Origin: a virus
Strand: one strand, 5' to 3'
IMG/VR virus record: IMGVR_UViG_3300031841_001076
Location: 1-31,049 of that record
DNA: 31,049 nucleotides
The notes beneath the pieces are model-generated. The model searched no databases and had not been told where the DNA came from. It saw only the letters and a program-made list of their open reading frames with translations. Shown here piece by piece: positions 3,314 through 30,847 of this stretch. The position numbers and the translations under genes were made by a program. Numbering within the stretch: the stretch's first letter is position 1; every line of letters begins with the position of its first letter.

Positions 3314-3979
3314 TTACACTCTTACTGAAAGGTTGCTTAATACTTTTTGAACATTTTCCACTGTTGTTTCAACATTAATTACAATCCAATAACTCTGCAT
3401 ATCACCAGCATTAAACAAATAATGGGCCTTAGTGGTGTCTGTAAAGTAAACAAATCCGGTATCCCAATGTGTAATATCACCGTCTATCACAAAATTAAAG
3501 TATGGTGGATTAACATATTGTAAGGGTACAATAAGCCTAAAACTGTCAACGAAGGGTATTTTATGATCTCTATGAGGGGGGAAATACCCACCTGGGTCTA
3601 GTCTTAAAATATGTGATCTAAAAATACTATCACCAAATACATCTAAAATTTCTTTTAAGGGCGGATATTCTGCTACAGGTGTTCTCACACTAAAATCTTT
3701 TTCGTCATAATGTGTATTATTTTCCTGATTGTATTCTCTTAAACTATCAAGATCTGGTATGCCACTAACTCCACCATCTAAACTTGTAATACTAAGGCCA
3801 TACCTTTGTACTTGTTTTCTAGGATTATATTTCACAAATTTAAATTTACTGTATACCCAATCTAAGAAATCATCAGGGTCTAAATAGTAATTTGTTTTGC
3901 ATTGTTTTCCGTACAATGCTAAAGAATTTAATGCTGTAGTGTCTAGCAATAATTCGTTTACTGTTTTCTTCTTTTCCAT
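3314..3979 (-). CDS. 2-oxoglutarate/Fe(II) oxygenase-like protein (Asp/Asn hydroxylase-like fold)
   Basis: The 221-residue protein has an HxD pair at H136/D138 (PPHRDH) and a second histidine at H186 in KAHYLFN, arranged as in double-stranded beta-helix Fe(II) dioxygenases. The intervening strands (FRLIVPLQYV, then FNFVIDGD) fit that fold. The Arg usually found about 10 residues after the last His, which binds 2-oxoglutarate, is not visible; R148 may replace it, or the enzyme may be divergent. The gene is linked to gp17 by a TAATG stop/start overlap at 3979-3981, so it is translated with the terminase. The substrate cannot be read. Such genes are known in marine T4-like phages. Confidence 0.65.
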   Translation of the reverse strand: MEKKKTVNELLLDTTALNSLALYGKQCKTNYYLDPDDFLDWVYSKFKFVKYNPRKQVQRYGLSITSLDGGVSGIPDLDSLREYNQENNTHYDEKDFSVRTPVAEYPPLKEILDVFGDSIFRSHILRLDPGGYFPPHRDHKIPFVDSFRLIVPLQYVNPPYFNFVIDGDITHWDTGFVYFTDTTKAHYLFNAGDMQSYWIVINVETTVENVQKVLSNLSVRV

Positions 3980-7759: not shown

Positions 7760-7939
7760 ATGACTACATATACAAACACAGATAAAGAGCAAAAAATTTT
7801 AGTAAGAGAACCACAAAATCCTGCTGAGGGTGAGTATACATTAGACAATTTTGGTAATTTGGTAGTTTTTAAAAAAGGTAAATGGGTAGATATGACAAAA
7901 TTAACTGTCTCCACTTCCGCCTTTTATGATTTTGAGTAA
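7760..7939 (+). CDS. Small plus-strand protein (59 aa), convergent with gp16
   Basis: An ATG at 7760 opens a 59-codon frame ending with TAA at 7937-7939. The product starts MTTYTNTDKEQK, is polar, and contains a stretch reading GEYTLDNFGNLVVF then KKGKWVDM. That has the same flavour as the G-x-Y/W ... L-x-x-x-x-G-x-W-V units in the sheath, gp14-like and gp15-like proteins of this phage. The frame has a late octamer at exactly the 5-nt spacing used elsewhere and fills an otherwise empty 203-base gap. Its last 39 bases overlap the 3' end of gp16 on the other strand. It is probably real; the function is unknown, perhaps a small virion or decoration protein. Confidence 0.6.
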   Translation: MTTYTNTDKEQKILVREPQNPAEGEYTLDNFGNLVVFKKGKWVDMTKLTVSTSAFYDFE

Positions 7940-8380
7940 GTCATTTCTATCGAAAACTGTTGCTTGAACTGACTCTTCGTTTGGTCCTTTATCACTAAAC
8001 TTATCAATTCTTGCCTTCTTAAGCATTAAATCTATCTGCTGTAACTTGGCTTTTGTTTTGGCATCACTGGCATCTAAGGCTATCTTTAACATGTTACTTG
8101 CTTCTGCAAATACTTTACCAGCCGCCATATCACTAACGTTCATACCTAAACTCATTAGTTGTTCATAACTGTTTATAGCCTTCTTGGCTATATCATTCAT
8201 CTCAACTTCATGATCTTCTAATCCTTTAATTTCTTTAAATGCTAGATTAATTTTCTCACTAACAGTTAAGGCATCCTGAGTTTCCTCTATGACATCCTGA
8301 GTTTCCTCTACCGTAGGCACAATCTCAGTAACCTCTTCAATAGGCGGTAGATTAAATTCTTCTTCTAGTTTCTTTGTCAT
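7901..8380 (-). CDS. gp16: Terminase small subunit
   Basis: The 159-residue protein matches the T4 gp16 family in plan: an acidic variable N-terminus (residues 1-40), a central helical hairpin (about 45-125) and a charged C-terminus. The hairpin segments AINSYEQLMSLGMNVSD, KVFAEASNMLKIALDA and LQQIDLMLKKARID are typical of the oligomerising core of gp16 in marine T4-like phages. It recognises DNA and stimulates the gp17 ATPase. The N-terminus contains a duplicated EETQD segment from a 21-bp direct repeat. The ATG at 8380 is 5 nt from a perfect TATAAATA octamer. The gene lies two genes upstream of gp17 rather than adjacent as in T4. Confidence 0.85.
   Translation of the reverse strand: MTKKLEEEFNLPPIEEVTEIVPTVEETQDVIEETQDALTVSEKINLAFKEIKGLEDHEVEMNDIAKKAINSYEQLMSLGMNVSDMAAGKVFAEASNMLKIALDASDAKTKAKLQQIDLMLKKARIDKFSDKGPNEESVQATVFDRNDLLKIIKGGSGDS
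8272..8310. repeat. 21-bp period direct repeat in the gp16 N-terminal coding region
   Basis: An 18-base sequence beginning CATCCTGAGTTT occurs at 8272-8289 and again at 8293-8310. It encodes the duplicated acidic EETQDV/EETQDA segment, an in-frame duplication in a variable part of the protein. Confidence 0.85.
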
Positions 8381-8385
8381 ATTAG

Positions 8386-8393
8386 TATTTATA
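8386..8393 (-). promoter_or_regulatory. Perfect late promoter octamer (TATAAATA) of gp16
   Basis: TATAAATA on the minus strand, then CTAAT and the gp16 ATG. The octamer overlaps the 3' end of gp4: the TAA at 8391-8389 is the gp4 stop codon. Stop, promoter and next start therefore lie within 16 bases. Confidence 0.9.
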
Positions 8394-8862
8394 ACTTGCG
8401 TTTTTTAGCAACACGTTTTTTAGCCTTACGAGGTTTATTATTTCTAAAAATTTGGTCTTCATTTATAACTTTAAAACGTATTCCTTTACGAGAACACCAT
8501 TCTTGTGCGGCTGTCCACTTTGCGGCATTAAGATGTGTCTGTATTTTTTGTCCTTGGCTTCTGGCATTTTCCAAAGTAGTTTGATTACTAGGTTTTATTT
8601 CTACTAACTCTACATGTTGTACGCCGTCTTTATCAGTATACTGAACCATAAAATCTGGAACATAATTATGATATTTCCCATCAATAGGACTTCTATATGG
8701 TATTTTTACATTTTCACTTGCCCATTTAGTAATATTTGGGTGACTGTCGCACATTCGCATAAATGCAAGTTCCCAACTACTTCTATAGGTAGGTGCTTTT
8801 CCACCCACAAATTTAGATGTATTTTGTATATCGTATTTACCTGATGCGAATTTACTGGCCAT
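8389..8862 (-). CDS. gp4: Head completion protein, gp4-like nuclease
   Basis: The 157-residue protein resembles T4 gp4 (gp50), which finishes packaged heads before tail attachment. The N-terminus has the pattern GKY...SKFVGG followed by YRSSWELAFMR, with the acidic residue of RSSWE at about residue 30. The central segment VPDFMVQYTD ... VELVEIKPS gives the D...ExK pattern of PD-(D/E)xK-like nucleases. The C-terminus is very basic (RKAKKRVAKKRKL), which fits DNA contact. Start 8862 lies 5 nt after a CATAAATA octamer. The 3' end is shared with the gp16 promoter. Confidence 0.9.
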   Translation of the reverse strand: MASKFASGKYDIQNTSKFVGGKAPTYRSSWELAFMRMCDSHPNITKWASENVKIPYRSPIDGKYHNYVPDFMVQYTDKDGVQHVELVEIKPSNQTTLENARSQGQKIQTHLNAAKWTAAQEWCSRKGIRFKVINEDQIFRNNKPRKAKKRVAKKRKL

Positions 8863-15071: not shown

Positions 15072-15734
15072 TTATACTAATTTAAGTGTCTGCTTAAACT
15101 CGCCTGTTTTCCAGTCTCTAATGTCTTCTACTTGCTTGGCTAGATCTTCGAGGGTTCCATTATTTTTAATAATGTAATCAACTGGGTAGCCTGCCCAATT
15201 CCATTCACTTTCATGAACATCTCTGTATTTGGTTGTCATTATCTTTCTGCTAACAACGTTATCGTGTGCCTGACTTGCTGTTCCAAACCATTCAGGTAGT
15301 TCACCACGTTGTACCCAGATAACAACTCCACCCATGTCTTTAATTAAATCCAGTTCATTTCTGAATCTGGCGTCACTTATAACAGTACATGGTGTGTTTT
15401 CCATTTGTTTTCTTATTCTGTATTCCAAACTGTTTAACCAAATATCCTGATCAAAATGATTTCTAAGTACTTCTGTACCTAATAATTGCAATGCTAGTCT
15501 GGGAGTAAAATTTGGCACACCTAATTTTTTAGTCCAAAATACATCAGGTGTTTCTCTGAAATCTCTGCTTTCTGTTGTATCACCTTCCAGCATAGATCTT
15601 TCCCAACCAAAAATACTGGAACATAAATCTTTTAAGGGGGCGGCGAAACTGTCATGGACACAACCTCGTTCTACAAACATATTGGCTACTGTATCTTTGC
15701 CACTGCCTATAAAACCGGTTATTCCTATTAACAT
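15072..15734 (-). CDS. gp1: Deoxynucleoside monophosphate kinase (T4 gp1 family)
   Basis: The 220-residue protein phosphorylates dNMPs to dNDPs for phage DNA synthesis. It opens with a P-loop, GFIGSGKDT at residues 7-15, the form used by this family. Further family-like segments are FAAPLKDLCSSIFGW, PRLALQLLGTEVLRNHFDQDIWLNSL and the DARFRNELDLIKDMGG motif. T4 gp1 has 241 residues, so length fits. It starts through a TAATG overlap with gp13, so a nucleotide-metabolism enzyme is coupled to a late neck gene and has no promoter of its own. Confidence 0.92.
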   Translation of the reverse strand: MLIGITGFIGSGKDTVANMFVERGCVHDSFAAPLKDLCSSIFGWERSMLEGDTTESRDFRETPDVFWTKKLGVPNFTPRLALQLLGTEVLRNHFDQDIWLNSLEYRIRKQMENTPCTVISDARFRNELDLIKDMGGVVIWVQRGELPEWFGTASQAHDNVVSRKIMTTKYRDVHESEWNWAGYPVDYIIKNNGTLEDLAKQVEDIRDWKTGEFKQTLKLV

Positions 15735-16495
15735 TATCCTATCACAAATCCTAGAGGCGTGTTGCCTTCTTCAAAATTATGTAGTCTTTCTTTAAGACCT
15801 TCTATTTCTGCCTGTCCTTCTGCCTTAAGAGCATCACCGTTAAGAGTAACAGTTCCACCGGCACCAGGCAAACCTGACACATATTTACTTCTTGCTTCAC
15901 CTAACATTAGTTTTGATTGTGCTAATGCGTATGCGGCCAACCATGGATTTGCTGATACATCTTTTAATAAAATGCTTTCAGGTATAAAGTTGTAAACACC
16001 TACAGCAATATCTTCTTCATGCCTTATGTTACGCATAATTTTTAAGTTTTTAGTATTTTTATTCCATATAAAATTATACTCACTTCCAAACACACGACCA
16101 ATAGTTTCTTTGTATTGTGCAAATGCATCAAATACTGCAAGTCCACCTATTTGTCCTGCTTGTAACATATACATATTGTTAAATGCTACATCAAATGGAT
16201 CAAAGTTAGTACCGCCACCACTGTTAGTGCCTATACCTCTACGGTATATACGCCTAACTTCCATCACTTCATCTGGTAATGTATAGTCTTGCTGTCCGTC
16301 AATAGTTTCTATAAAGATAATACTTTCTTCAACACTACCCGAACTAAGTTGTCTATATAGTGATAGAGCTTTATCTATTGCTACGTCGTAATGTTCTCTG
16401 TCTAATTCAACGTCTACTATGCCGTCAGCCAAACGAAGTTGTAACTCACGTATGAGATCTTCTCTACTACTAAATCCTATTGTATCTATTGCCAT
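15734..16495 (-). CDS. gp13: Neck protein gp13-like (head-tail connector)
   Basis: The 253-residue protein fits the gp13 family of marine T4-like phages. It has an N-terminal helical domain (SREDLIRELQLRLADGI, then DVAIDKALSLYRQLS), a strand QQDYTLPDEVMEVRRIYR, a central domain, and a C-terminal helix-loop with NPWLAAYALAQSKLMLGEARSKY and LPGAGGTVTLNGDAL. gp13 acts with gp14 in closing the filled head and joining the tail. The ATG at 16495 is 5 nt after a GATAAATA octamer. In T4, genes 13-14-15 are contiguous; here the gp14-like and gp15-like genes lie 8 kb away on the other strand. Confidence 0.8.
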   Translation of the reverse strand: MAIDTIGFSSREDLIRELQLRLADGIVDVELDREHYDVAIDKALSLYRQLSSGSVEESIIFIETIDGQQDYTLPDEVMEVRRIYRRGIGTNSGGGTNFDPFDVAFNNMYMLQAGQIGGLAVFDAFAQYKETIGRVFGSEYNFIWNKNTKNLKIMRNIRHEEDIAVGVYNFIPESILLKDVSANPWLAAYALAQSKLMLGEARSKYVSGLPGAGGTVTLNGDALKAEGQAEIEGLKERLHNFEEGNTPLGFVIG

Positions 16496-16518: not shown

Positions 16519-17676
16519 TTAAAATGCCTTAAGAATGATAGTATTATCATTAATTCTTCCGTTCATTTTAATTCCTGTAGTAGTAAGTTCCTCAAATGAT
16601 TTAGCAAATTTAGTTTTTGCTTTTCCTGTCCAATTACTAATTTGCTCTTTGGGTTTTCTTAAAGTTTTTTGTAAACTTGTTTCTTCATCAAAATCCTGTA
16701 TAGTTGTTCCTTTTACCATTAACCCTGAACCAGGTCTTGCTAAGTTTTTAGGATCTTTATTTATTGCATGATATACACCTAACTTTCTGGTTTTAGTATT
16801 GTATATCCAAAGTTCATTTGCATTAACAATATCTGTAGGATGAATACTTGCTATACCTAATTCACTGTCATTAATTTGATATTTTAATTTTTTAATAATA
16901 GAGTCTTTACTTCTTGCTTTAGGCTTACGAGCTTTTCTAGTAGTCGCTTTTGTTTGAATAGTGGTATCACATGCTGTATTAATCTTTTCAAAAAACTCTA
17001 GATACTCTTTTCGTTGCTTGGCTGATAAATGTGCATATCCTTCTTTAATATCAGGATCACTCCATTCTTTTACCTCTAATGCTTCTTTGTAAGCATTATC
17101 AAAATCGTCTTTTATAAGTTTGGCATGAGCGGCTTTAATTTCAGGTGTATATGAAATGATGTCTTTATAAGGTTCAAAGTCTTTTACAGTAATACTACCT
17201 TCTACTAAACAATCTAACTTATATTCCCAATCTGCACATAGATGTTCAACTTGCATTTTCATTCTATCCTGAATGCTAATAACTCGTTTATTAATCTTGG
17301 CTTTTTCCTTTTTTTCTGCTACAACACTTTTACCACGTTTAATCCATTCTTCTTTACGTTTAACTAAATGTTCCTTAATATTTTCAGGCATATAACCCAA
17401 CTTGTACTCTATAAACGTTGATATACCAGTAGCACTAAAGGCCCAGTCAGGATTTGCTAAAACAAATTTTTGTTCTTCTTTTGTCCACCCAGATGTATTT
17501 TTAATCCAATTTCTAACAGAAGCAACTAATTTCTTTTTAGGTATTTCCGTCCTAACAAAATATTCACATCTATGAAATGCGTCTGCTTGTTCTGTTAAAT
17601 CTGTAAGAGCCCTGTATACATTCCATTCAGGTTCTTTAGTTATATAGATGCTACGATTTTTTGTACGTTTTGCCAT
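16519..17676 (-). CDS. Unknown basic protein
   Basis: The 385-residue protein is very rich in lysine and is not recognised. It begins MAKRTKNRSIYITKEPEWN. A helical region with many basic residues (about 75-200) contains NKRVISIQDRMKMQVEHL. At about 243-260 there is a cluster TTRKARKPKARSKDSIIKKL that looks like a nucleic-acid-binding tail or linker. The final 110 residues look like a separate domain (ELWIYNTKTRKLGVYHAI ... IKMNGRINDNTI). It follows the 74-codon gene by 9 nt with only a weak Shine-Dalgarno and precedes gp13. A DNA- or RNA-binding role is an inference from charge only. Confidence 0.75.
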   Translation of the reverse strand: MAKRTKNRSIYITKEPEWNVYRALTDLTEQADAFHRCEYFVRTEIPKKKLVASVRNWIKNTSGWTKEEQKFVLANPDWAFSATGISTFIEYKLGYMPENIKEHLVKRKEEWIKRGKSVVAEKKEKAKINKRVISIQDRMKMQVEHLCADWEYKLDCLVEGSITVKDFEPYKDIISYTPEIKAAHAKLIKDDFDNAYKEALEVKEWSDPDIKEGYAHLSAKQRKEYLEFFEKINTACDTTIQTKATTRKARKPKARSKDSIIKKLKYQINDSELGIASIHPTDIVNANELWIYNTKTRKLGVYHAINKDPKNLARPGSGLMVKGTTIQDFDEETSLQKTLRKPKEQISNWTGKAKTKFAKSFEELTTTGIKMNGRINDNTIILKAF

Positions 17677-17966: not shown

Positions 17967-18923
17967 TTATTTGCCGCGACTGAAGTTTTTTCTCTGATTG
18001 TGAGGTATATTATTTTCTATAATGTTTTTCCAAACTTCTATAGTTTTATCTAACCCTTGACTAAGTTCTACTTTTGGAAACCATCCAAGTCTAGTAGTAA
18101 TTTTATGATTTGTGCTATTCAATAAATAAATTTCTCCAGGTCTTTTTGGTTTAGTATTCCAATTTACATGACCGTTCCAATCTAATTTATCAGCAATTAA
18201 TTTTACATAGTCCTTAATTTTAATTGCATTATCTGGACCTATGCAAAATATTTCTCCAGCACATTTTTCCGGATTTGTTATTACGGTTTCCCAAGCATCA
18301 AGTAAATCATCAATATAGATAAAGTTTCTGTATGGCTCACCATAACCTAAATTTATTTCATCTGGATTTTTTAACATTTGTGTAATAATTTGTTCTGTCA
18401 CAAAAAAGTCATTGTCTTTTCTACCATAAGCATTTGTTTGACGTATTGCTGTGAATGGCAAACCATAACTTCTGTGAGCATACTCTAAGTACTTTTCACA
18501 GCCATATTTTGCAACGGCGTAGGGGGCATTTGGATTTGGTGGTGTTGCTTCGTTAAATGCAATAATACCTTCTTCTTTTCCGTCTCTGATAATATCACTA
18601 ATAGGTTGCCAGCCATATACTTCCATTGTACTTGCAAACACAAAGTTTTTCAAGTTAGGTAAATCTTTTGCAATTTCTATTAAATTTACTGTACCAGTAT
18701 AATTAATATCACTAAATGTGATTTGTTCATAAAAACTTTGCTCTACTTCTGTTCTTGCCGCCAAATGTACAATAATTTCAGGATCAAATGTAGATATTTG
18801 CATAGCAACTTTTGAATGGTCTCTTAAATCTTCCGATAGAAAACCTAGCTCGTGTTTATCTTTTAATCTTTCCACCATGTGCTGACCTATAAAACCGTCC
18901 GCTCCTGTTATAAAAATTTTCAT
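17967..18923 (-). CDS. NAD-dependent sugar epimerase/dehydratase (extended SDR)
   Basis: The 318-residue protein is of the extended short-chain dehydrogenase family that acts on nucleotide sugars. The Rossmann motif GADGFIG (G7, G10, G13) is at the N-terminus, the catalytic YxxxK is Y135/K139 (APYAVAKYG), and S98/T99 in FASTMEVYG supplies the third residue. Substrate-domain segments RQTNAYG and NFIYIDDLLDAW are also typical. It could be a 4-epimerase or 4,6-dehydratase; sequence alone does not decide. It is the last gene of the metabolic cassette and overlaps the upstream oxygenase gene by 4 bases. Confidence 0.9.
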   Translation of the reverse strand: MKIFITGADGFIGQHMVERLKDKHELGFLSEDLRDHSKVAMQISTFDPEIIVHLAARTEVEQSFYEQITFSDINYTGTVNLIEIAKDLPNLKNFVFASTMEVYGWQPISDIIRDGKEEGIIAFNEATPPNPNAPYAVAKYGCEKYLEYAHRSYGLPFTAIRQTNAYGRKDNDFFVTEQIITQMLKNPDEINLGYGEPYRNFIYIDDLLDAWETVITNPEKCAGEIFCIGPDNAIKIKDYVKLIADKLDWNGHVNWNTKPKRPGEIYLLNSTNHKITTRLGWFPKVELSQGLDKTIEVWKNIIENNIPHNQRKNFSRGK

Positions 18924-19465
18924 ATTAAATCCTTTTCTTTTGCATACCCTGTGAGTTGCATTGTAAATCTAGGTTCATAACCTAAGTTAGCGACTGAATG
19001 AACTAAATTTGGTCTTATAATAGTAAAGTCTCCCTTTTTATAATCTAACCAACTTTCATTCTCTATTTCTATATAATGGCCCATTAATCTATCTTGTAAG
19101 AATAAATTTACTCTCACAGGTACCATTCCTTCTGTATCCATATCTTCTCGTTCTGCTTTTTTACGCATTTTATATAATGTATCAACATGCGGTGCTATAA
19201 ATCTACCTGGCATAAGTTTATTTACTGTAACTATACCATAATGAAGCCAATCACTAAAATGATCATATACACCATGAACCCAACTTGGGCAATCGTCCTC
19301 AAACACTTGCCATACCCAAGGTGCTTCATATGGGTAATCTGGTACTGCTACACCTTTGTCTTTCCAAAAACCGCCACTGTAAACAGTATTAGTATGCTCT
19401 GTAAACTTTAGCCTGTATAACATTTCTTCTGTTATATGGCTTATATCAACATGCCCTTTATACAT
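18920..19465 (-). CDS. Fe(II)/2-oxoglutarate oxygenase-like protein, paralogue A
   Basis: The 181-residue protein has H93/D95 (APHVDTL) and H156 (NLVHSVAN) as likely iron ligands, with R166 (EPRFTMQLTG) ten residues after the last His, the usual place for the Arg that binds 2-oxoglutarate. Order and spacing fit the Asp/Asn beta-hydroxylase type of beta-helix oxygenase. It is a tandem paralogue of the next gene upstream: both share PHxVD, a G-HYxE strand, W-K-GDF/EW and a late V/I-x-N-x-GxEP segment. It overlaps its neighbours by 8 and 4 bases within the cassette. The substrate is unknown, perhaps the product of the amidinotransferase or aminotransferase pathway. Confidence 0.75.
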   Translation of the reverse strand: MYKGHVDISHITEEMLYRLKFTEHTNTVYSGGFWKDKGVAVPDYPYEAPWVWQVFEDDCPSWVHGVYDHFSDWLHYGIVTVNKLMPGRFIAPHVDTLYKMRKKAEREDMDTEGMVPVRVNLFLQDRLMGHYIEIENESWLDYKKGDFTIIRPNLVHSVANLGYEPRFTMQLTGYAKEKDLI

Positions 19466-19952
19466 TTTTTAACACAGTTACTTGTGCAGAGTAAAATGGT
19501 TCTTCTCCCATATTACCTGCTATGTGCCAATCGTCTATGCCAAACTTTACCCATTCACCTGCTTTCCATTTTGTAAAAGGTTGATCGTGTACTTCATAAT
19601 AATGCCCACGTTTCCAATCTTCTAAAAATATCAAATATCGATAACTTTCACCTTCTCCATGTTCTTGTTTTAATTTAAAATGTTTATCAACATGATGTGG
19701 AATTGTTTGTCCAGGTTCTATGTTGATAACACTTACAACATGATGGTCAAAGTCTTGAGGTATCTTTTTGGCTAAGTCATGTACCCATTGAGGGGAAGTT
19801 TCAAACATCTGCCATATACTGCTATTATGTTTTGTATAATATTTTTCTACAGCAGGTGTTTGCTGATAACATTGGAAATAGTCGTCAAAGTTTAATTGAC
19901 TCATTTGCTCATGAGTTATTCCAAAGTTATCAATTTTTCCGTATTTAATCAC
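19458..19952 (-). CDS. Oxygenase-like protein, paralogue B, lacking the 2-oxoglutarate Arg
   Basis: The 164-residue protein aligns by eye with paralogue A. Iron ligands H87/D89 (PHHVDK) and H143 (DWHIAGN) are present. At the place of R166 in paralogue A the sequence reads EPFYSAQVTV, with Phe/Tyr instead of Arg. The enzyme may bind its co-substrate differently, or act as a non-catalytic partner of paralogue A. It overlaps the amidinotransferase gene by 8 bases and paralogue A by 8 bases, so the three are translated together. Confidence 0.7.
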   Translation of the reverse strand: MIKYGKIDNFGITHEQMSQLNFDDYFQCYQQTPAVEKYYTKHNSSIWQMFETSPQWVHDLAKKIPQDFDHHVVSVINIEPGQTIPHHVDKHFKLKQEHGEGESYRYLIFLEDWKRGHYYEVHDQPFTKWKAGEWVKFGIDDWHIAGNMGEEPFYSAQVTVLKNV

Positions 19953-21006
19953 AGTAACTTTCTAAAGTGCCTTTACGTCTTAAGTCTAATGTAGCACAAT
20001 GAATACCGCCAGACAACGTCATAGAGTGCCTAAACTGAACAGGTACACTATCTATACCATACTTGTCTAATTCTCGCATCAGAGGCTCTTGAGCTGAGTC
20101 TAAGACTACTGTATTCTCATCTACACTTAGTAGATTCATTCCAATGTACGGAGAACATGGTGGCATATATCCTTGCTCTGCAAGTTTACTTCCTTGTACT
20201 ACGCAATCATCAAACCAAATTTTATCCCATTTCTTAAACATTTCAGGACAATTATCAGGTGTTACCCTTGAACTGTTCATTAGTACTAGTCCTGGTCTAA
20301 GTGGAACAATAGTGCTATCAAAATGTGCAAAACTGTATAGTTCACTGTAATGCATTTTATAACCCATTGGCTCTAGTAATCTTTTAAGCCATTTGTAACC
20401 TTTCATGTTACCTGAATTACTTACTTGATATAATAAATCTTTTCCAACTCTCACAATATTTGGTGCATCAAAACATATCTCATGATCTAATAATGTTGGT
20501 TTGTCTTCAATGTCTTCAAATGTGTACATGTCATCATGTAAGTTTGGTTTAGGTGCTTGTAACCATAATGCACCATCTTCAAATGCTTCGTACATTATGT
20601 CTTCATATAATTTTGTTTCAAAATATCTTGCTCTTACAGGAGTAGGAGTTTCAATTAACATATCACCTAATGGTAATATTAAGTCTCTTGGGCACCAACT
20701 ATACCAGCCTTTTGTGTTCCAACCTTGACCAATGTCGTAATTTACATTGTCCCAATCAATAATTTTTGGTCTGCGTACTTTTACGCCCATTTTTGTTAGT
20801 GCATCTGCAAGTCCGTCCGCATCTTCATTTGCTTCGTCAATTACCCATTGCGGATAAGTGCCTTCTAATTTTTCTACATCTTCTTTTTTAAAATTTGCGT
20901 AACTGAAACTTCTTGCGGATATATCAGTTGCAATTCTGCTGTGGTGGGCATGTCCAACGATGATCTCTTCTAAAGGATCCCAATCGTTGTGGGAATTAAC
21001 TATCAT
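19945..21006 (-). CDS. Amidinotransferase (arginine:glycine / inosamine amidinotransferase family)
   Basis: The 353-residue protein moves the amidino group of arginine to an amine. The N-terminus NDWDPLEEIIVG is the family signature. The catalytic triad is visible: D180 in CFDAPNIV, H228 in SFAHFD and the nucleophile C337 in GGIHCATLDLRR. The spacings (48 and 109) are close to those of human AGAT (D254, H303, C407). The length matches StrB-type enzymes (about 350). The acceptor may be glycine, an amino sugar or an aminocyclitol; the neighbouring aminotransferase, epimerase and glycosyltransferase-like genes favour a sugar-like acceptor, as inference. The start has an AGGAGA Shine-Dalgarno and a late octamer at 21040-21047. 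Confidence 0.93.
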   Translation of the reverse strand: MIVNSHNDWDPLEEIIVGHAHHSRIATDISARSFSYANFKKEDVEKLEGTYPQWVIDEANEDADGLADALTKMGVKVRRPKIIDWDNVNYDIGQGWNTKGWYSWCPRDLILPLGDMLIETPTPVRARYFETKLYEDIMYEAFEDGALWLQAPKPNLHDDMYTFEDIEDKPTLLDHEICFDAPNIVRVGKDLLYQVSNSGNMKGYKWLKRLLEPMGYKMHYSELYSFAHFDSTIVPLRPGLVLMNSSRVTPDNCPEMFKKWDKIWFDDCVVQGSKLAEQGYMPPCSPYIGMNLLSVDENTVVLDSAQEPLMRELDKYGIDSVPVQFRHSMTLSGGIHCATLDLRRKGTLESYCD

Positions 21007-21039
21007 TATGTCTCCTGTGATGTGTTTAATATAACGTAC

Positions 21040-21047
21040 TATTTATT
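21040..21047 (-). promoter_or_regulatory. Late promoter octamer of the amidinotransferase-epimerase operon
   Basis: AATAAATA on the minus strand, 33 nt before the ATG at 21006, with AGGAGA in the leader. The four downstream genes overlap and should share this transcript. Confidence 0.75.
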
Positions 21048-21057
21048 ATATCTTAAA

Positions 21058-21933
21058 CTATCTGGCTAGCCATTCTGATACACAAACCCTGTAGTTTCCA
21101 TGTACACCTCTATTAAATTCGCTATGCCTTGTTTCATCACCTAAACCAAAAATTACTGTGTCTGTATATACCAATCCTTGTTGCTCACAGACATCTTCAT
21201 ATATGCTCCTATATTTTTCCCAATTATAATCAGGAGAAAAATTACGCATATATTCTACCCCTAAAGCCATGCTATATTTATTTTGCATTTTAACTTCGTT
21301 GAGCATACTAACACCATCATCTACATACTGTCTTGTAAATCTGATACCTACTCTGTGATTTTCTAATGTATAAAAAGGCTTACTTAGGCTACAGGTTACT
21401 TCTTCTATAGCAGGAAAATCATTCAAATCTATATGCATATTTTTACTGATACCCCAATATGCTAAGTCTAAACAAACTGGTATATCATGAACCTTACATA
21501 CTTGCATAATATGTTCGAAATCTGGATGTATTACACCATAATCACTAAAAGGCGCACTTATAATTAACGCATGTAATCCTATACCGTTCAAGGCTTCTTC
21601 TAAATGATGAGGATAATCAATATACTTAAAATCAACATGTTTTCCTAAACAAGCATGATATTGAAAATCTCCTGATAAACAAATTATTTGCCTGTCTTTA
21701 CTATGGCGTAGAATAAATTGATCAAATGTTTGACTAGTACCTTGTGTATAATCAGCATAGTTAAATTTTTCTAAACCCAATAAACTTTTACAAGAACTAA
21801 AGTTTAACCACTCCTTCCAGGTATCAGTATATTGTTGCATTGTAGGAATAACAATATCATTTTTATCTAAGTGAAAATGAAAATCTGTTAATTCTTTATT
21901 TTTAATTGGTCTTGCACCTCTAACTGCAGGCAT
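21058..21933 (-). CDS. PLP-dependent aminotransferase-like protein (fold type I), short
   Basis: The 291-residue protein has core marks of class I/II aminotransferases: D156 in PVCLDLAYWG (pairs with the PLP ring nitrogen), K185 in CSLSKPF (Schiff-base lysine) and R194 in NHRVGIRF (phosphate contact). Upstream, YTQGTSQTF and ICLSGDFQYH fit the N-terminal part of the PLP site. At 291 residues it is about 100 shorter than usual, mainly through a reduced C-terminal small domain, so it may be a minimal or specialised enzyme. The 5' end overlaps the glycosyltransferase-like gene by 14 bases. In this cassette it could supply the amine that the amidinotransferase modifies. Confidence 0.75.
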   Translation of the reverse strand: MPAVRGARPIKNKELTDFHFHLDKNDIVIPTMQQYTDTWKEWLNFSSCKSLLGLEKFNYADYTQGTSQTFDQFILRHSKDRQIICLSGDFQYHACLGKHVDFKYIDYPHHLEEALNGIGLHALIISAPFSDYGVIHPDFEHIMQVCKVHDIPVCLDLAYWGISKNMHIDLNDFPAIEEVTCSLSKPFYTLENHRVGIRFTRQYVDDGVSMLNEVKMQNKYSMALGVEYMRNFSPDYNWEKYRSIYEDVCEQQGLVYTDTVIFGLGDETRHSEFNRGVHGNYRVCVSEWLAR

Positions 21934-23287
21934 TTATAACCTCCTCAAAAAAATTATTATTACTTATTCGTCTAAATTTACCAGTTGTAATATTTTTATA
22001 ATTATGTGCTACATCATTTTTTAACAGTTCCATCATTCGTAAAAAATGAGTATCTGACATACTTCTAATACTGCTAATGGTATTAAAAAATCCTTGTACT
22101 CTTAATTTTAGTGTATCATGAGTATTAAAACTTATATCCCAAAATTTATCAAATGTTTTAAAATCTAGTTTTTGTAACTCTTCATACAATCCTTTACACC
22201 CTATAGTTATAAATGGCTTCTTAAAATACATAGGAAACATTTGTTTTTCATCTACATAACCATATCCGTAAGGCTCTCCTCCAGGTATTAACGCAATATG
22301 GCCTGTTTCATAAAGCCAAGGACCTGGTACTCCTCTATCGTTCAAAGTATCAAGATCTATAATATGTGGCCTACTATACAATACCTGTGTGATACCAGAC
22401 ATTTCCTTTTCTGTAAGTTTTTCATTTTTTAAAAGGTCATGCATAGCAGTTGCCATTAAATTAGTATGATATGGGTATTCCTCTTTGGTATTAGGATTAT
22501 CATATATCTTTGCTAAAAAACTAGGATTCATAGAGTAGTTCCTAGAGTATGTAACATCTTCTAATTTATTTCCTTTATGCTCAATGTAATACGAAATTAA
22601 AAGCCTATGACTTCTGCAATTTCTCATTGTTAGTAGAAATTTATTTTTTAAATCTTTATACTCATCCAACCCTTCAGGAGGTTCTATTTGGTTTAAATTT
22701 ACGTGAGTATTTTTGCTTAATATACTTGTAATATAATGTACTCTATCTAAATACCATAATTTATGTATTTTATGTACATTTTTACAATGTTTTAAATGCT
22801 TATCATAATTTCCAAAAAAGTCTTGTGTTTCTCCTGACCCACTAATTATAAATTGCACTTGGGGGAATAAACTTGATAATTTTACAAAATACATATTTGC
22901 ATCGAAAAAATATGGCTCTGTGCTTGTATAAACTAAAAATACTGTATTGGGTAGATTATAATTTACGCATTCTGCTATCTTTTCATCAATAAGTTTACCA
23001 AAATCTGACAAAGTAAATTTTTCACCTGCAGACTCATATGACAAAGGAAAACTTTGAAAGTCTATAGGAAATAAATTAATTGAATCTTTAGGGACATTGC
23101 CATCTAAATTATGTATTATATTAAAATTAAATTTTTCATTATCAATATTTCTACTGTCATTTAATTGGCATAGAACTTCTAAAGGAAGTGGCTCTCTCCC
23201 TAACCATCCTATTTCATTATGCTTTCTTACTACCTCGTCTTCAAACTGAAAGCCATTATGTAGATATATAATATTAATATTTTTCAT
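21920..23287 (-). CDS. Glycosyltransferase-like protein (exostosin/GT-B-like C-terminal motif)
   Basis: The 455-residue protein has no clear N-terminal domain, but two segments resemble a viral glycosyltransferase-like family: KFLLTMRNCRSHRLLISYY at about 216-234 and, at 348-384, a block beginning KQMFPMYFKKPFITIGCKG and continuing YEELQKLDFKTFDKFWD. The second corresponds to the nucleotide-sugar-binding region of exostosin-like enzymes. The start at 23287 lies only 9 nt after the encoded CCA of tRNA-Ser, with AAGGG next to the tRNA end as Shine-Dalgarno, so tRNA and gene share a transcript. Candidate acceptors are a virion protein or phage DNA; no evidence separates these. Confidence 0.55.
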   Translation of the reverse strand: MKNINIIYLHNGFQFEDEVVRKHNEIGWLGREPLPLEVLCQLNDSRNIDNEKFNFNIIHNLDGNVPKDSINLFPIDFQSFPLSYESAGEKFTLSDFGKLIDEKIAECVNYNLPNTVFLVYTSTEPYFFDANMYFVKLSSLFPQVQFIISGSGETQDFFGNYDKHLKHCKNVHKIHKLWYLDRVHYITSILSKNTHVNLNQIEPPEGLDEYKDLKNKFLLTMRNCRSHRLLISYYIEHKGNKLEDVTYSRNYSMNPSFLAKIYDNPNTKEEYPYHTNLMATAMHDLLKNEKLTEKEMSGITQVLYSRPHIIDLDTLNDRGVPGPWLYETGHIALIPGGEPYGYGYVDEKQMFPMYFKKPFITIGCKGLYEELQKLDFKTFDKFWDISFNTHDTLKLRVQGFFNTISSIRSMSDTHFLRMMELLKNDVAHNYKNITTGKFRRISNNNFFEEVINACS

Positions 23288-23296
23288 TTTAACCCT

Positions 23297-23386
23297 TGGC
23301 GGAAAGGGAGGGATTCGAACCCTCGGTACAGTTACCCGTACTCTTCCTTAGCAGGGAAGTGCTTTAAGCCGCTCAGCCACCTTTCC
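23297..23386 (-). tRNA. tRNA-Ser (anticodon GCU)
   Basis: On the minus strand the gene runs from 23386 to 23297. The 7-bp acceptor stem is GGAAAGG/CCTTTCC, the D arm is GCTGAGCGGCTTAAAGC, and the anticodon stem CTTCC/GGAAG encloses CTGCTAA with anticodon GCT. A long variable arm of the serine type is present (GAGTACGGGTAACTGTACC), then the T arm with GGTTCGAATCC, discriminator G and an encoded CCA. It reads AGU and AGC, codons common in this AT-rich phage. It is preceded by a late octamer and followed after 9 nt by a protein start. Confidence 0.97.
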
Positions 23387-23393
23387 TTTCCAC

Positions 23394-23401
23394 TATTTAT
23401 T
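23394..23401 (-). promoter_or_regulatory. Late-type octamer directly before tRNA-Ser
   Basis: AATAAATA on the minus strand ends 7 nt before the tRNA 5' end. With the same initiation distance as for the protein genes, the transcript would begin only one or two bases before the mature tRNA. A TATAAT hexamer at 23410-23405 offers an alternative sigma70 -10 but has no convincing -35. Confidence 0.65.
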
Positions 23402-23430
23402 AGTATTATATACAGTTATAATTTTTTACT

Positions 23431-23438
23431 GATAAATA
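23431..23438 (+). promoter_or_regulatory. Late promoter octamer of the radical SAM gene, 5 nt before the ATG
   Basis: GATAAATA on the plus strand, then TTGGT and the ATG at 23444. It is divergent from the tRNA promoter 30 bases away. Confidence 0.87.
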
Positions 23439-23443
23439 TTGGT

Positions 23444-24535
23444 ATGTATACGAACCACATAAACAACATACATGTTGAAGTCACAGATAGATGTAATGCT
23501 GAATGTCCAGTATGCCCAAGATCAATGAGTGGTGGCGAAACTTTTCCTTATACTAGAGATAAAGAATTATCAATAGATTACTTTAAATTAATTGGTGAGA
23601 AGTTCCTATCTAAAATTGATAATTGGAATTTTTGCGGAGTAAAAGGAGACCCTGCGTCAGCTCAGGATTTATTTGAGATTTTAGACTATATTTTACATTG
23701 TAACCCTGAAACCAGAATACTAATTAGAACAAATGGTGGTGCAAGAAATGAAAAATTTTGGAGTAAGGTAGGAAATTTATTTGTAGGTAAAGACTGTGAT
23801 GTAGTATGGAGTGTAGATGGATGGGAAGACACTAATCACATTTATAGAAAAAATGTAAAATGGAATAAACTGTTTAACAATCTAAATGCTTATATTAAAA
23901 CAGGTGCATCGTCCATGTGGGAGTTTAATTTATTTGCACATAATGAAGTAGACCTACCAAAAGTAAAAGAGTTTTGCAATTTACATAATATCTGTTTAGA
24001 TATTAGAGAGCCTTTTGGGTTTGATAAAGTTGGCGATATGTATAAAACTATAGGAGTATATAACAAAACAGGCGATGGTAGAACATCAAAATTAGCATAT
24101 ACCATAAAACCTTATGGAGTACCAGAAGATAAAATTGCTGACATACACCCTGAAACAAATGATATACAAGACTTTGCCCCTGGAGTATACGACTTACATC
24201 ATATGACATATCTTAAAACGTCTGGTACAACTGTAAAATGCCAATCTACTAGAGTAGGCATAGGTACAAAATCACACAGCCAGGAAATATATTTAGATTC
24301 TAATGGTATGATTTTCCCCTGTTGCTATACTGCTGGTAAATTTCATATGGGTGATGAGCAAATAAATGAAATGTATAGACCATTTAAAAAACAACTCACA
24401 GTAAGCAATGATCGTAGCATATACGATGTACTAAGTCTAGACCTTTTCACTAAAGTAATGCCACTAGGCATGGCAGGTAAATTAGATGACCCTGCTGGTT
24501 ACTGCATTACCTGTGTCCAACATTGTAAATTTTAA
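23444..24535 (+). CDS. Radical SAM enzyme with C-terminal SPASM-like cysteines
   Basis: The 363-residue protein has the radical SAM signature CxxxCxxC at C17, C21 and C24 (RCNAECPVCPRS), which binds the [4Fe-4S] cluster that cleaves S-adenosylmethionine. The barrel follows, with a glycine motif region near NFCGVKGDP and a strand RILIRTNGG. The C-terminal part has more cysteines (GMIFPCCYTAGKF and YCITCVQHCKF) as in SPASM/twitch domains, which hold auxiliary clusters and often modify peptides or sugars. A late octamer 5 nt before the ATG controls it. It diverges from the metabolic cassette and may act in the same pathway, or modify a virion peptide; the sequence does not say which. Confidence 0.88.
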   Translation: MYTNHINNIHVEVTDRCNAECPVCPRSMSGGETFPYTRDKELSIDYFKLIGEKFLSKIDNWNFCGVKGDPASAQDLFEILDYILHCNPETRILIRTNGGARNEKFWSKVGNLFVGKDCDVVWSVDGWEDTNHIYRKNVKWNKLFNNLNAYIKTGASSMWEFNLFAHNEVDLPKVKEFCNLHNICLDIREPFGFDKVGDMYKTIGVYNKTGDGRTSKLAYTIKPYGVPEDKIADIHPETNDIQDFAPGVYDLHHMTYLKTSGTTVKCQSTRVGIGTKSHSQEIYLDSNGMIFPCCYTAGKFHMGDEQINEMYRPFKKQLTVSNDRSIYDVLSLDLFTKVMPLGMAGKLDDPAGYCITCVQHCKF

Positions 24536-24566: not shown

Positions 24567-25637
24567 ATGCCTAGATTAAGTTTATGGAATCCAACGAAAA
24601 CAAATGATTACAGTTTCATTGATAGAATTGTGGGTGAGCATATCTTTGCTGGTGGAACTGGCGTTCATATACACAAATATATGGGTATCCAAGATACACC
24701 TAACAGCAACGACCCTACCAGACCAGGCAGTGGCTCAGGCACAAATAATGAAGTATTCATACAAGATTTATTATTTTTAGAAAATAGAGACAGAAAATAC
24801 AGTGAAGATATTTATGAATTACGTGGCCAATACAATTTAGGCGACAACGATTCATTTGATTTAACACAATTTGGTATGTTTTTGGCAAATGATACTTTGT
24901 TTATGAACTTTCATACAGAAAGTATGGTTGATGCCGTAGGTAGAAGACTTATGCCAGGCGATGTATTAGAACTACCACATTTAAGAGACGACCTTTTGTT
25001 GGGTAGTGATGAAGCAATAAACAGATTTTATGTTGTAACTGATGCTAGTAGGCCCGCAGAAGGATATGATCCACGTTGGTGGTCACACCTTTGGAGAGTT
25101 AAATTAGGTCCAATAACAGATTCACAAGAGTACAGAGATATTCTTGGTACAGGTGAGGAAGAAGACGATTTAAGAAATCTAATAAGCACCTATGCTAATG
25201 AGATAAAGATTAGTGACGCGATACTAGAACAAGCAGAACGTGATGTACCATTTGACCCACAATATAGAAAAACAGGTCATTTATATATGGATGATACTGT
25301 TCCAGATAAACCAGCACCAGGATTAGATTATGGTGGTGCTGATGGTAGTCCAGTAAACGGTTCAAGTATTGTTGGAAGTGGAGCAACGTTCCCAATAAGT
25401 GGAACGACTGACGGTGATTACTTCTTGAGAACAGACTTCAGCCCAAATAGATTATTTAAAAAATCAGGGACACGTTGGTTAAACGTAGGTTCAGATATGA
25501 CAGGTTCTTGGAGTGCCGCAAACAGAATACTTAAAGGGTTTATAAATAATGATTCAACCTTTACAGCAGATAACGGCGAAATAATGAAGGAAAAGGTTAA
25601 TTTAAGCAAAATTGTAAAGCCTAAAACGGATAACTAA
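24567..25637 (+). CDS. Neck protein gp14-like, with C-terminal surface-type modules
   Basis: The 356-residue protein fits the gp14 family in part: EVFIQDLLFLENRDRKYSED near 62-81, then FDLTQFGMFLANDTLFMNF, a segment PGDVLELPH, and INRFYVVTDA ... WSHLWRVKLGPITDSQEY. These parallel the EYGL/GDLI-type segments of T4-like neck proteins. The C-terminal third is an extension with two units of the kind found in the sheath (HLYMDD at about 238; GDYFLRTDFSPNRLFKKSG then RWLNVG, 283-308). Position two genes before the gp15-like gene supports a neck role. The start is 5 nt from a late octamer. A different structural role remains possible. Confidence 0.6.
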   Translation: MPRLSLWNPTKTNDYSFIDRIVGEHIFAGGTGVHIHKYMGIQDTPNSNDPTRPGSGSGTNNEVFIQDLLFLENRDRKYSEDIYELRGQYNLGDNDSFDLTQFGMFLANDTLFMNFHTESMVDAVGRRLMPGDVLELPHLRDDLLLGSDEAINRFYVVTDASRPAEGYDPRWWSHLWRVKLGPITDSQEYRDILGTGEEEDDLRNLISTYANEIKISDAILEQAERDVPFDPQYRKTGHLYMDDTVPDKPAPGLDYGGADGSPVNGSSIVGSGATFPISGTTDGDYFLRTDFSPNRLFKKSGTRWLNVGSDMTGSWSAANRILKGFINNDSTFTADNGEIMKEKVNLSKIVKPKTDN

Positions 25638-28777: not shown

Positions 28778-30847
28778 CTATTTAGTTGTTTTGCGTTCAA
28801 CTCCGTCCCATTCGCCTTTAGGCATAGGTTGTTTGATTCTTACTGCATAGAGATCTGCAAGGGTATCGTTCCATTTATGATCTTTAATTATTTCTAGTTG
28901 ATTAGAACACTCTGCCCATGCTCTGTTTTGATATGCATCAACCATTCTGTTTACGACTCTTGCATACTTATGATCTTGTAATATAGTATAAATTGTTACA
29001 GGTGCTGTTTGTCCTTTAACTGCAATTTTATCCAGCATTACTAAATTTTCCGGCGTTGTTATTTGTTTTAGTGTATGCTCTGTAAACATAAAGAACACAC
29101 CATACTCTTTTGTTTGTGCTTCTAAACGTGCCGCTAAGTTTACACTATCACCTAATACGGTGTAATCAAAACGTTGGTTACTACCCATGTTACCTACTAC
29201 CGCATCGCCTGTGTTAATACCTATACCAACACCTAATTCCATTAAGCCATCTGCTTTAAGTTCTTTATTGAGAGTTGCTAATTCTGTTTCCATTTCCTGT
29301 GCTGTTTCTATTGCCAACTGAGCATGGTTATCAACATCAAGTGGAGCATTCCATATCGCCATTAAGGCATCACCTATATACTTGTCTATTGTGCCTTCTT
29401 TACGCATAACTAAATCAGTCATTGGAGTCATATATCTGTTTATGAGTTTACCTAAACCTTGTGGGTCTGTTTTAAACTGTTCCGATATGGGAGTAAATCC
29501 ACGAATGTCTGAGAACAAATATGTCATTGTTCTTGTGTCACCACCTAAACGTAATAGGCTTGGATCTTTTTGTAACTTTTTAACCATTGCTGGTGCAAGG
29601 TAATGTTCAAATTGTTTCTTAATTTGTTCACGTAATTTAAACTGTTTATAAAAGTTATTAAATGCCGCCTGTGTAAAAACTAAAAAGCCACTTAGAACAG
29701 GAAATGTTGCGTCTACTAGTACTAAACTACCTGTGTATTGTCTTACACTATAATATGCTATACCGCCTAAAATCGCTAAGGCAATAGGTGCCGTTAGTAG
29801 TAAAGGTAATCTATATACTGCTAAAGCAACTAAAGTCATTACTAGAAGTGCTGTCAGAAGCTCGTAGAACGCGGCTAACTGGCTTCTTGTTATATTACTA
29901 CCACTTATAAAGTTCTGTAGCATATGAGCTTGTATCTCTTGTGGATATAAGTTTCCTCTAGGTGTAGGTACAGGGTTTGCTATACCTTCTGCTGTAACAC
30001 CCACTATCACCATTTTACCTGCTAAATCTGGTATACTGTCTGCTCCTGTATATTCTATAGTCTCAAAACTATTATTAAAACGTATATATGCTGTGCCGTC
30101 TGGTTGAGTAATAATAGGTTCGAATCCTTTTACAGCAACTTCCTGTATTCCTATTTCACTTGTTTTAACTATATAACTTTTATTACCTGTTTTAACTCTC
30201 AACATTTCTACAGCAAAAGAGGGGTATATTTTTTCACCCACAGTAATTGCTAATGGGTATGTTCTTGTTTGATTGTCTGGCTGTGGTGCAGAAGCATTTA
30301 CTCCTTTTCCATTTGCCATTGATTCTAATATAGGAACATTGGTAACCAAGTTGGGCCATTTTAACAAATAATCTTTTGCTGGTACAGGACCAATTGTGCC
30401 TGTGCCTATATGAGGTCCAGATGTTTTTATACCTTTTACACTAGGTGTTTGGCTTAGTACATTGTAGTTAATCGGATTTCTTCTTGCTCCAGGAACATTA
30501 ACTTTATTTTGTTCTAAAAAACTAGCAAAAGTAGGGTCTCCTCCAAAACGATCTTCTTCTGGAAACATAATAGTCCAACCCACAACTCCACTATTTTTAC
30601 TTGCAACATCTACAATTAGTTGAGCATAATACTGCCTGGGGAAAGGATATTGGCCGTAAGTTGCTAGAGTGTTTTCGCCAAAGTTAAGTAGTACAACATC
30701 ATCGCTTTGTACTAATTCATCTAATTGTTGGTAACTGTCAAAAACTTGACCACGTAAACTTTGTAATGGCGTAGGGTCAACTACCCTTAGTGCGAGTAAT
30801 AATGCTATAGATAGTACTACTGCGTACCCGCTGTATAACCATTTCAT
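28778..30847 (-). CDS. Membrane-bound class III adenylate cyclase with CHASE2 sensor domain
   Basis: The 689-residue protein has an N-terminal membrane segment (about 4-21), a periplasmic CHASE2-type sensor (about 25-315, with VVLLNFGENTLATYGQYPFP and AGKMVIVGVTAEGIANP), three membrane segments (about 327-345, 348-367, 374-393) and a class III cyclase domain (about 430-620). All catalytic residues are present: metal-binding D447 (FSDIRGF) and D493 (YIGDALMAIW), adenine-selecting K489 and D561 (FDYTVLGDS), and transition-state N570 and R574 (NLAARLE). It should make cAMP from ATP. A GATAAATA octamer 5 nt before the ATG puts it under late control. Such a sensor-cyclase is a bacterial-style gene and unexpected in a phage. 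Confidence 0.95.
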   Translation of the reverse strand: MKWLYSGYAVVLSIALLLALRVVDPTPLQSLRGQVFDSYQQLDELVQSDDVVLLNFGENTLATYGQYPFPRQYYAQLIVDVASKNSGVVGWTIMFPEEDRFGGDPTFASFLEQNKVNVPGARRNPINYNVLSQTPSVKGIKTSGPHIGTGTIGPVPAKDYLLKWPNLVTNVPILESMANGKGVNASAPQPDNQTRTYPLAITVGEKIYPSFAVEMLRVKTGNKSYIVKTSEIGIQEVAVKGFEPIITQPDGTAYIRFNNSFETIEYTGADSIPDLAGKMVIVGVTAEGIANPVPTPRGNLYPQEIQAHMLQNFISGSNITRSQLAAFYELLTALLVMTLVALAVYRLPLLLTAPIALAILGGIAYYSVRQYTGSLVLVDATFPVLSGFLVFTQAAFNNFYKQFKLREQIKKQFEHYLAPAMVKKLQKDPSLLRLGGDTRTMTYLFSDIRGFTPISEQFKTDPQGLGKLINRYMTPMTDLVMRKEGTIDKYIGDALMAIWNAPLDVDNHAQLAIETAQEMETELATLNKELKADGLMELGVGIGINTGDAVVGNMGSNQRFDYTVLGDSVNLAARLEAQTKEYGVFFMFTEHTLKQITTPENLVMLDKIAVKGQTAPVTIYTILQDHKYARVVNRMVDAYQNRAWAECSNQLEIIKDHKWNDTLADLYAVRIKQPMPKGEWDGVERKTTK
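28779..28786 (-). promoter_or_regulatory. Late promoter-like octamer, 5 nt before an ATG
   Basis: ACTAAATA on the minus strand, then GTAGT and the ATG at 28773. It lies in the last codons of the cyclase gene and overlaps its TAG stop. The match to NATAAATA is imperfect at the second position, but the spacer is the same as at gp17 and gp13. Confidence 0.6.

Follow-up and report, generated by a model that had tools for sequence, protein, structure and literature searches.

Amidinotransferase and radical S-adenosylmethionine (SAM) modules are already known in phages. A 2010 paper on CP220 and CPt10 described exchangeable modules that contain an amidinotransferase gene and five radical SAM genes (PMC2853527). 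Cyanomyoviruses have a g15–g18 hyperplastic region (Millard 2009, as cited in PMC2984593), where variable auxiliary genes lie between the sheath and gp15-type genes. The cassette considered here is carried by IMG/VR record IMGVR_UViG_3300031841_001076, a linear fragment of 31,049 nt referred to below, at its full length, as the window. Five of its seven genes encode a pyridoxal 5′-phosphate (PLP) enzyme (E), an amidinotransferase (D), two oxygenases (C and B), and a short-chain dehydrogenase/reductase (SDR) of the nucleotide-sugar type (A). Comparative gene maps indicate that this core, E-D-C-B-A, is a selected unit that is inherited, gained, and lost as a block, with the glycosyltransferase (GT)-like gene F and the radical SAM gene G as add-ons.

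Like the cassette, the CP220/CPt10 modules are exchangeable, are carried by phages, and combine an amidinotransferase (29% to D) with several radical SAM genes and genes of the nucleotide-diphospho-sugar transferase type (PMC2853527). They differ in lacking a homologue of E and, in the stretch compared, homologues of B/C and A, and they belong to another phage lineage; their amidinotransferase has neither the StrB-type flap nor an arginine aligning with Arg322 of AGAT. In Synechococcus phage S-SCSM2R (PQ898602.1), an amidinotransferase gene (38.5% to D) overlaps a B/C-type oxygenase gene, and five annotated GTs and a radical SAM gene lie nearby. That cluster, in contrast, includes a DegT-type gene, annotated as 3-amino-5-hydroxybenzoic acid synthase, and is without homologues of E and A. 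An amidinotransferase is likewise accompanied by radical SAM and sugar-transfer genes in two unrelated phage groups (S-SCSM2R, CP220-type), and the present five-gene version differs from them in its gene set. A sequence-only reading of the window had known of no described phage system of this kind, which was too strong a statement because the CP220/CPt10 modules had been published. The recurrence of amidinotransferase, radical SAM, and sugar-transfer genes in three unrelated phage groups hints at a general, unexplored phage chemistry.

A fixed core and variable accessory genes

All seven open reading frames (ORFs) recognized earlier were confirmed, the radical SAM gene running divergently from the other six, which are on the minus strand (Table 1). 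A and B overlap by 4 bp, B and C as well as C and D by 8 bp, and E and F by 14 bp; D and E are separated by 51 bp. A tRNA-Ser(GCU) gene between F and G, detected with ARAGORN, had been overlooked.

Gene maps were drawn for 84 non-redundant IMG/VR loci; the contigs of the relatives are metagenomic, so that absence from a contig is weak evidence. Among the loci fetched with D or E that have both flanks, 41 of 41 contain E, D, A, and at least one of B/C in one fixed order, while F is found in 20 and G in 21. As this way of fetching biases the occupancy count, a second count took loci retrieved through the flank gene g24567. E and D are present in all 31 such loci with at least 4.5 kb on the cassette side, and all five core families occur in 22 of the 23 that span both flanks. 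Locus L234 is a natural empty site, in which the flanks are 330 bp apart and all five core genes are missing. A few relatives keep just one of B and C, and none is without both; where a one-copy relative matches both genes in tblastn, this may be a cross-match because B and C are paralogues. Across loci, identity is 80–99% for D and 73–94% for A, and the ratios of nonsynonymous to synonymous substitution rates (dN/dS) of the seven genes, at ~0.03–0.2, indicate strong purifying selection.

It is the constant co-occurrence and order, the empty site, and the low dN/dS that argue for a block-inherited, selected core, which is conserved but dispensable. The pathway-like set of seven genes proposed by the sequence-only reading, for which co-occurrence in related phages had been suggested as a check, is thereby narrowed to the five-gene unit, since F and G, each in about half of the loci, are variable. 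It is very unlikely that the cassette is a hypervariable insertion site in which auxiliary genes without a common function have collected, each belonging to a separate host pathway. Such a collection would fit the interval, which corresponds to the known hyperplastic site of cyanomyoviruses (PMC2984593), and the coming and going of F, G, and X1–X4; however, E-D-(C/B)-A is never split or reordered in the 41 loci, has translational overlaps, and is missing as a block in L234. For the core this explanation is largely refuted, and for F and G it is possible.

Other add-ons in the relatives include X1 (a B12-binding radical SAM protein, 28 loci), X2, X3, X4, and a second F between E and D. X3 is sulfotransferase-like by eye only and has no Pfam match; X4 is GT-like and has the C-terminal part of F in common. 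The commonest small ORF of the cassette, X0 (74–81 aa), has a membrane-anchor-like start and is missing from several loci. The tRNA-Ser(GCU) gene together with F adjoins G in 19 of 40 relatives scanned, and the tRNA is absent where F is absent from that position; an exception is L046, in which F is present without the tRNA. The tRNA may mark an insertion unit.

The T4 late promoter core ATAAATA is found on the coding strand within 50 bp upstream of 13 of the 31 window genes, versus 1 on the opposite strand and 1.4 in shuffles; over the whole window it is not enriched (23 versus 21.6). Among relatives, it occurs within the same distance upstream of D in 58 of 73 (0 on the opposite strand), upstream of E in 31 of 72, and at −12 of G in 21 of 34 orthologues. 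To judge from these motifs, the cassette is apparently switched on late in infection.

The amidinotransferase and its partner enzymes

Profile and fold comparison was used because single-sequence searches of Pfam, PHROGs, and NCBIfam gave no function for D, E, and F. The catalytic residues noted earlier as intact in D (D180/H228/C337), A (Y135/K139), and E (D156/K185) are invariant in the homologues compared, including, for D, those of Campylobacter and Synechococcus phages. Against the PDB, the D profile scores 338 bits with StrB1, 250 with AGAT, 246 with HsvA, and 236 with SxtG, the match to 1bwd (StrB1) having an E value of 5e-100 over profile positions 3–345. R247 of D aligns with AGAT Arg322 and is kept in the present lineage. 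The role of Arg322 in AGAT fits arginine as the donor, and the conservation of R247 is consistent with it. The acceptor flap before the catalytic histidine reads LYSFA or LYSYA in 76 of 76 cases, LYAST in Streptomyces StrB1, and xxPM in the AGAT-like group (NPM in AGAT), with flap roles and the AGAT/AmtA/CyrA flaps taken from PMC4887976. The closest bacterial proteins are Streptomyces StrB1 types (43–45%). In the tree, the phage D sequences make up a separate clade that belongs to the StrB-like group and not to the group with the xPM flap; the tree does not order this clade relative to StrB1 and the other StrB-like clades.

The StrB-type pathway logic invoked earlier is supported for D in that both the PDB profile ranking and the flap are StrB-like and not AGAT-like. 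D likely takes the amidino group from arginine and passes it to an amine, the acceptor being bulky and StrB-like. Its closest solved structure is StrB1 of streptomycin biosynthesis (1BWD), with an identical catalytic triad and a similar flap; in contrast to StrB1, D lies in a clade of its own, in phages without a streptomycin-type aminocyclitol pathway. A listing of the genomic contexts of bacterial StrB-like genes yielded no single clear pathway. GAMT is enriched in ocean viruses (PMC11360552). A creatine pathway was rejected, with no GAMT-like gene recognized in the cassette and a flap in D that is not AGAT-like. Archaeosine-type or 7-deazaguanine amidination was likewise rejected, as the 250-kb contig of a relative (G001) contains no QueC and D belongs to the AGAT/StrB family, not to the ArcS type.

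The AlphaFold model of E (predicted local distance difference test (pLDDT) score 86.8) matches class I/II PLP enzymes of the PDB in Foldseek, the best at 6.6e-11. All 26 representatives compared share D156/K185, and DxAYW, SLSKxF..RVG, and NxRVC recur in 72 of 72. Its fold, PLP-binding DxAY, lysine, and arginine motif place E in fold type I, class I/II (the aspartate aminotransferase superfamily). NxRVC, near the C-terminus, would resemble the carboxylate-binding arginine of class I aminotransferases. One close viral fold relative is A0A6J5KXV0 (template modelling (TM) score 0.80). The PLP fold of E therefore stands, although its earlier designation as an aminotransferase is a fold assignment only. 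A profile search of Campylobacter phages found no homologue of E, and tblastn found none of E, B, or F in isolated phages.

A carries STMEVYG in 65 of 65 orthologues, with T99/E101/Y135/K139 invariant; position 100 is methionine instead of the usual aspartate or serine, and the NCBIfam equivalog cut-off is not reached. The glutamate of a TxE motif, as in A, is typical of 4,6-dehydratases, and the closest phage homologues are mostly annotated as dTDP-glucose 4,6-dehydratase. A, formerly called an epimerase, is of the nucleotide-sugar type and is better read as a dehydratase-type SDR.

The GT-like character of F attributed to it earlier fits a predicted GT-B-like fold (pLDDT 87), with Foldseek matches to VldE (1.4e-5) and T4 beta-glucosyltransferase (2.7e-4) at probability 1.00 but TM-scores of just 0.3–0.4. 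The latter neighbour would accord with a hypermodified DNA (or tRNA) base bearing a guanidino or glycosyl group that shields phage DNA, as would the GTP cyclohydrolase I and QueE-like radical SAM genes of the 250-kb relative. However, D, F, and G carry late promoters, whereas genes for DNA precursors are normally early or middle, F is dispensable, and the 250-kb contig has no QueC, making such a base the least probable of the explanations considered.

B and C are paralogous (hhalign 99.7%). The HxD...H triad and a +10 arginine are conserved in B, and H87/D89/H143 are invariant in C; their Pfam Asp_Arg_Hydrox matches are weak (6e-4 and 5e-3). The B homologue in S-SCSM2R adjoins the amidinotransferase (8.8e-17). 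In G, CxxxCxxC (C17/C21/C24) and a C-terminal cysteine are invariant in 22 representatives, identifying it as a radical SAM protein; the profiles of G and F have no PDB sequence matches. AspH-like B/C, a G similar to SPASM/twitch radical SAM proteins (among them several peptide-maturing enzymes), and late promoters in a structural neighbourhood would all suit modification of a protein or peptide, in which virion-protein side chains undergo hydroxylation, radical SAM chemistry, and amidination. This is distinctly unlikely, however, as the cassette holds no conserved small precursor peptide, X0 does not occur in several loci, half of the loci lack G, and A and F point to sugars.

A candidate guanidino-glycan route

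The preferred explanation, held tentatively and falling somewhat short of probable, is that the cassette makes a guanidino building block late in infection, which variable accessory enzymes attach to and tailor on a virion glycan or, less likely, a glycan of the infected-cell surface. With fair support, D would move the amidino group from arginine to an amine on a bulky StrB-like acceptor. More speculatively, A might supply or process the nucleotide-sugar part, E might act on an amino- or keto-acid-type substrate and install or prepare nitrogen, B and C might hydroxylate the intermediate, F might transfer the product, and G might modify it by radical chemistry. On balance, a sugar or glycan context is favoured because A is a nucleotide-sugar SDR, F is GT-B-like, X4 is GT-like, and the S-SCSM2R and CP220 clusters offer comparable company. 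The synthesis and transfer of a guanidino- or amino-sugar had been proposed by the sequence-only reading, and D, A, and F agree with it; E does not, since it is not of the DegT family.

Several observations weigh against the guanidino-glycan explanation. Known sugar and inosamine aminotransferases belong to the DegT family. None of 26 members of the E family has a Pfam DegT match (two weakly match Aminotran_1_2), and six related contigs yielded no DegT gene. The supposed StrB-type order of an aminotransferase followed by an amidinotransferase is therefore not supported, E being a class I/II-fold enzyme with a C-terminal arginine motif. Relative G001 has further F-like genes, radical SAM genes, and a second nucleotide-sugar SDR elsewhere, but neither a nucleotide diphosphate-sugar pyrophosphorylase nor a GT2 was found in it, so that the host would need to provide the sugar precursors. 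Half of the loci have no F and must rely on another enzyme for transfer, and the TM-scores of the structural matches to F are low. Amino acids and peptides are also substrates of AspH-like oxygenases.

The family of E, together with the lack of DegT, pyrophosphorylase, and GT2 genes in the contigs tested, keeps alive an alternative in which the product is a small guanidino amino acid or diffusible metabolite. D would make it, B/C hydroxylate it, and E modify or cyclize it, and it would serve as an inhibitor or signal or be attached later. Capreomycidine and enduracididine pathways pair a 2-oxoglutarate (2OG) oxygenase with a class I PLP enzyme, AspH-like oxygenases usually act on amino acids, and E, class I/II-like with an arginine motif resembling a carboxylate binder, has GntC (8fft) and the desaturase Plu4 (7n79) among its Foldseek matches, 7n79 being its sole sequence-profile match (E 0.072). 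However, the fold search gives similar scores to all class I PLP enzymes and so does not single out GntC and Plu4. The nucleotide-sugar SDR within the invariant core, the GT-like add-ons around it, and a StrB-like flap in D unlike that of glycine- and lysine-using enzymes also speak against a free amino acid, which is on the whole unlikely.

With guanidino-glycan synthesis still preferred, a broader proposal is that this phage lineage evolved its own late route, in which a constant core and swappable customizing enzymes place a charged guanidino group on a virion or cell-surface sugar. Though doubtful, it would, if true, represent a new chemical class of viral surface modification; no description of guanidino groups on viral glycans or virion proteins was found in the literature searched. 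A strongly charged sugar could alter host attachment, recognition by defences, or superinfection. The conservation of D implies that its product must matter to these phages, and since L234 is a natural relative without the block, a comparison between phages that are alike in other respects could in principle be used to test the function.

Genomic setting and further observations

The structural genes of the window encode a tail sheath (phrog_10581), tail tube, terminase, head-tail adaptor, and gp15-type sheath stabilizer. For the sheath and the flank protein g24567, the nearest relatives are jumbo phages such as PA5oct, Paride, Atu_ph07, and SCTP-2 (~37–43%). The window is a piece of a jumbo myovirus that has Pseudomonas phage PA5oct as a distant relative. 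The cassette lies between the sheath (gp18)-side genes and g24567/the gp15-type stabilizer, the same position as the g15–g18 region of cyanomyoviruses (PMC2984593). It differs from that region in its fixed five-gene core, which is biosynthetic and not devoted to photosynthesis or carbon metabolism.

Table 1. Coordinates of the cassette genes, their predicted promoters, and the flanking genes in the window
Feature	Position	Strand	Basis
Flank gene g16519 (phrog_11903), one cassette border	16519..17676	-	PHROGs match, gene maps
A: extended SDR, nucleotide-sugar 4,6-dehydratase/epimerase-like, core	17967..18923	-	Pfam GDP_Man_Dehyd 1.9e-42, Epimerase 8.8e-41
B: AspH-like/cupin 2OG-Fe(II)-type oxygenase, core	18920..19465	-	HxD...H triad; weak Asp_Arg_Hydrox/Cupin_2 matches
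C: AspH-like/cupin 2OG-Fe(II)-type oxygenase, core	19458..19952	-	H87/D89/H143; weak Asp_Arg_Hydrox matches
D: StrB-type L-arginine:X amidinotransferase, core	19945..21006	-	PDB profile search; D180/H228/C337; flap
T4-type late promoter core ATAAATA, 40 bp upstream of D	21040..21046	-	Motif scan
E: small fold-type-I (class I/II-like) PLP enzyme, core	21058..21933	-	AlphaFold, Foldseek, motifs
F: GT-B-like putative glycosyltransferase, accessory	21920..23287	-	AlphaFold, Foldseek
tRNA-Ser(GCU), nearly always accompanies F	23297..23386	-	ARAGORN
T4-type late promoter core ATAAATA upstream of tRNA-Ser/F	23394..23400	-	Motif scan
T4-type late promoter core ATAAATA at −12 of G	23432..23438	+	Motif scan
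G: radical SAM protein, SPASM/twitch-like, accessory	23444..24535	+	Radical_SAM 5.3e-4, NF033640 twitch 1.6e-11
Flank gene g24567, virion structural protein (phrog_11591), other cassette border	24567..25637	+	PHROGs match

As a clue to the host, psbA was not found in the contigs tested. A 3.7-kb contig, L102, with E-D-C-B lies inside a Synechococcus lacustris genome assembly. It is probably a stray phage contig and a weak host hint, because the assembly has no sheath gene and 291 other cyanobacterial genomes have no homologue of E.

Further clusters were observed in G001. At L190:6077-19415, a second large cluster encodes at least three proteins matching the G radical SAM profile, whose neighbours have similar cysteine-rich starts, as well as an F-like gene and, by eye, NeuB-like, UDP-sugar-dehydrogenase-like, and carbamoyltransferase-like genes. 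The GTP cyclohydrolase I (1.5e-37) and QueE-like radical SAM genes are at L191:13053-15126, with no QueC on the contig. At L186:8694-11538 are three adjoining signal-peptide-like proteins, two with curlin-like repeats by eye.

In the window, ATAAATA stands exactly at −12 of the start codon of the genes at 1301-3295, 3979-5577, 7901-8380, 8389-8862, 15734-16495, 23444-24535, 24567-25637, and 28778-30847, and in relatives this position is kept for g15734 in 55 of 55, g24567 in 47 of 59, and g27781 in 35 of 46. A T4-type late promoter so placed would start transcription at the A of the ATG, predicting leaderless late mRNAs. The gene at 28778-30847 encodes a protein of 689 aa in which a CHASE2 sensor domain is combined with a class III adenylate/guanylate cyclase domain (Pfam 2e-32 and 6e-19), conserved at 79–98% in most near relatives and down to 34–39% in a few; it is a phage-coded sensor cyclase with its own predicted late promoter.

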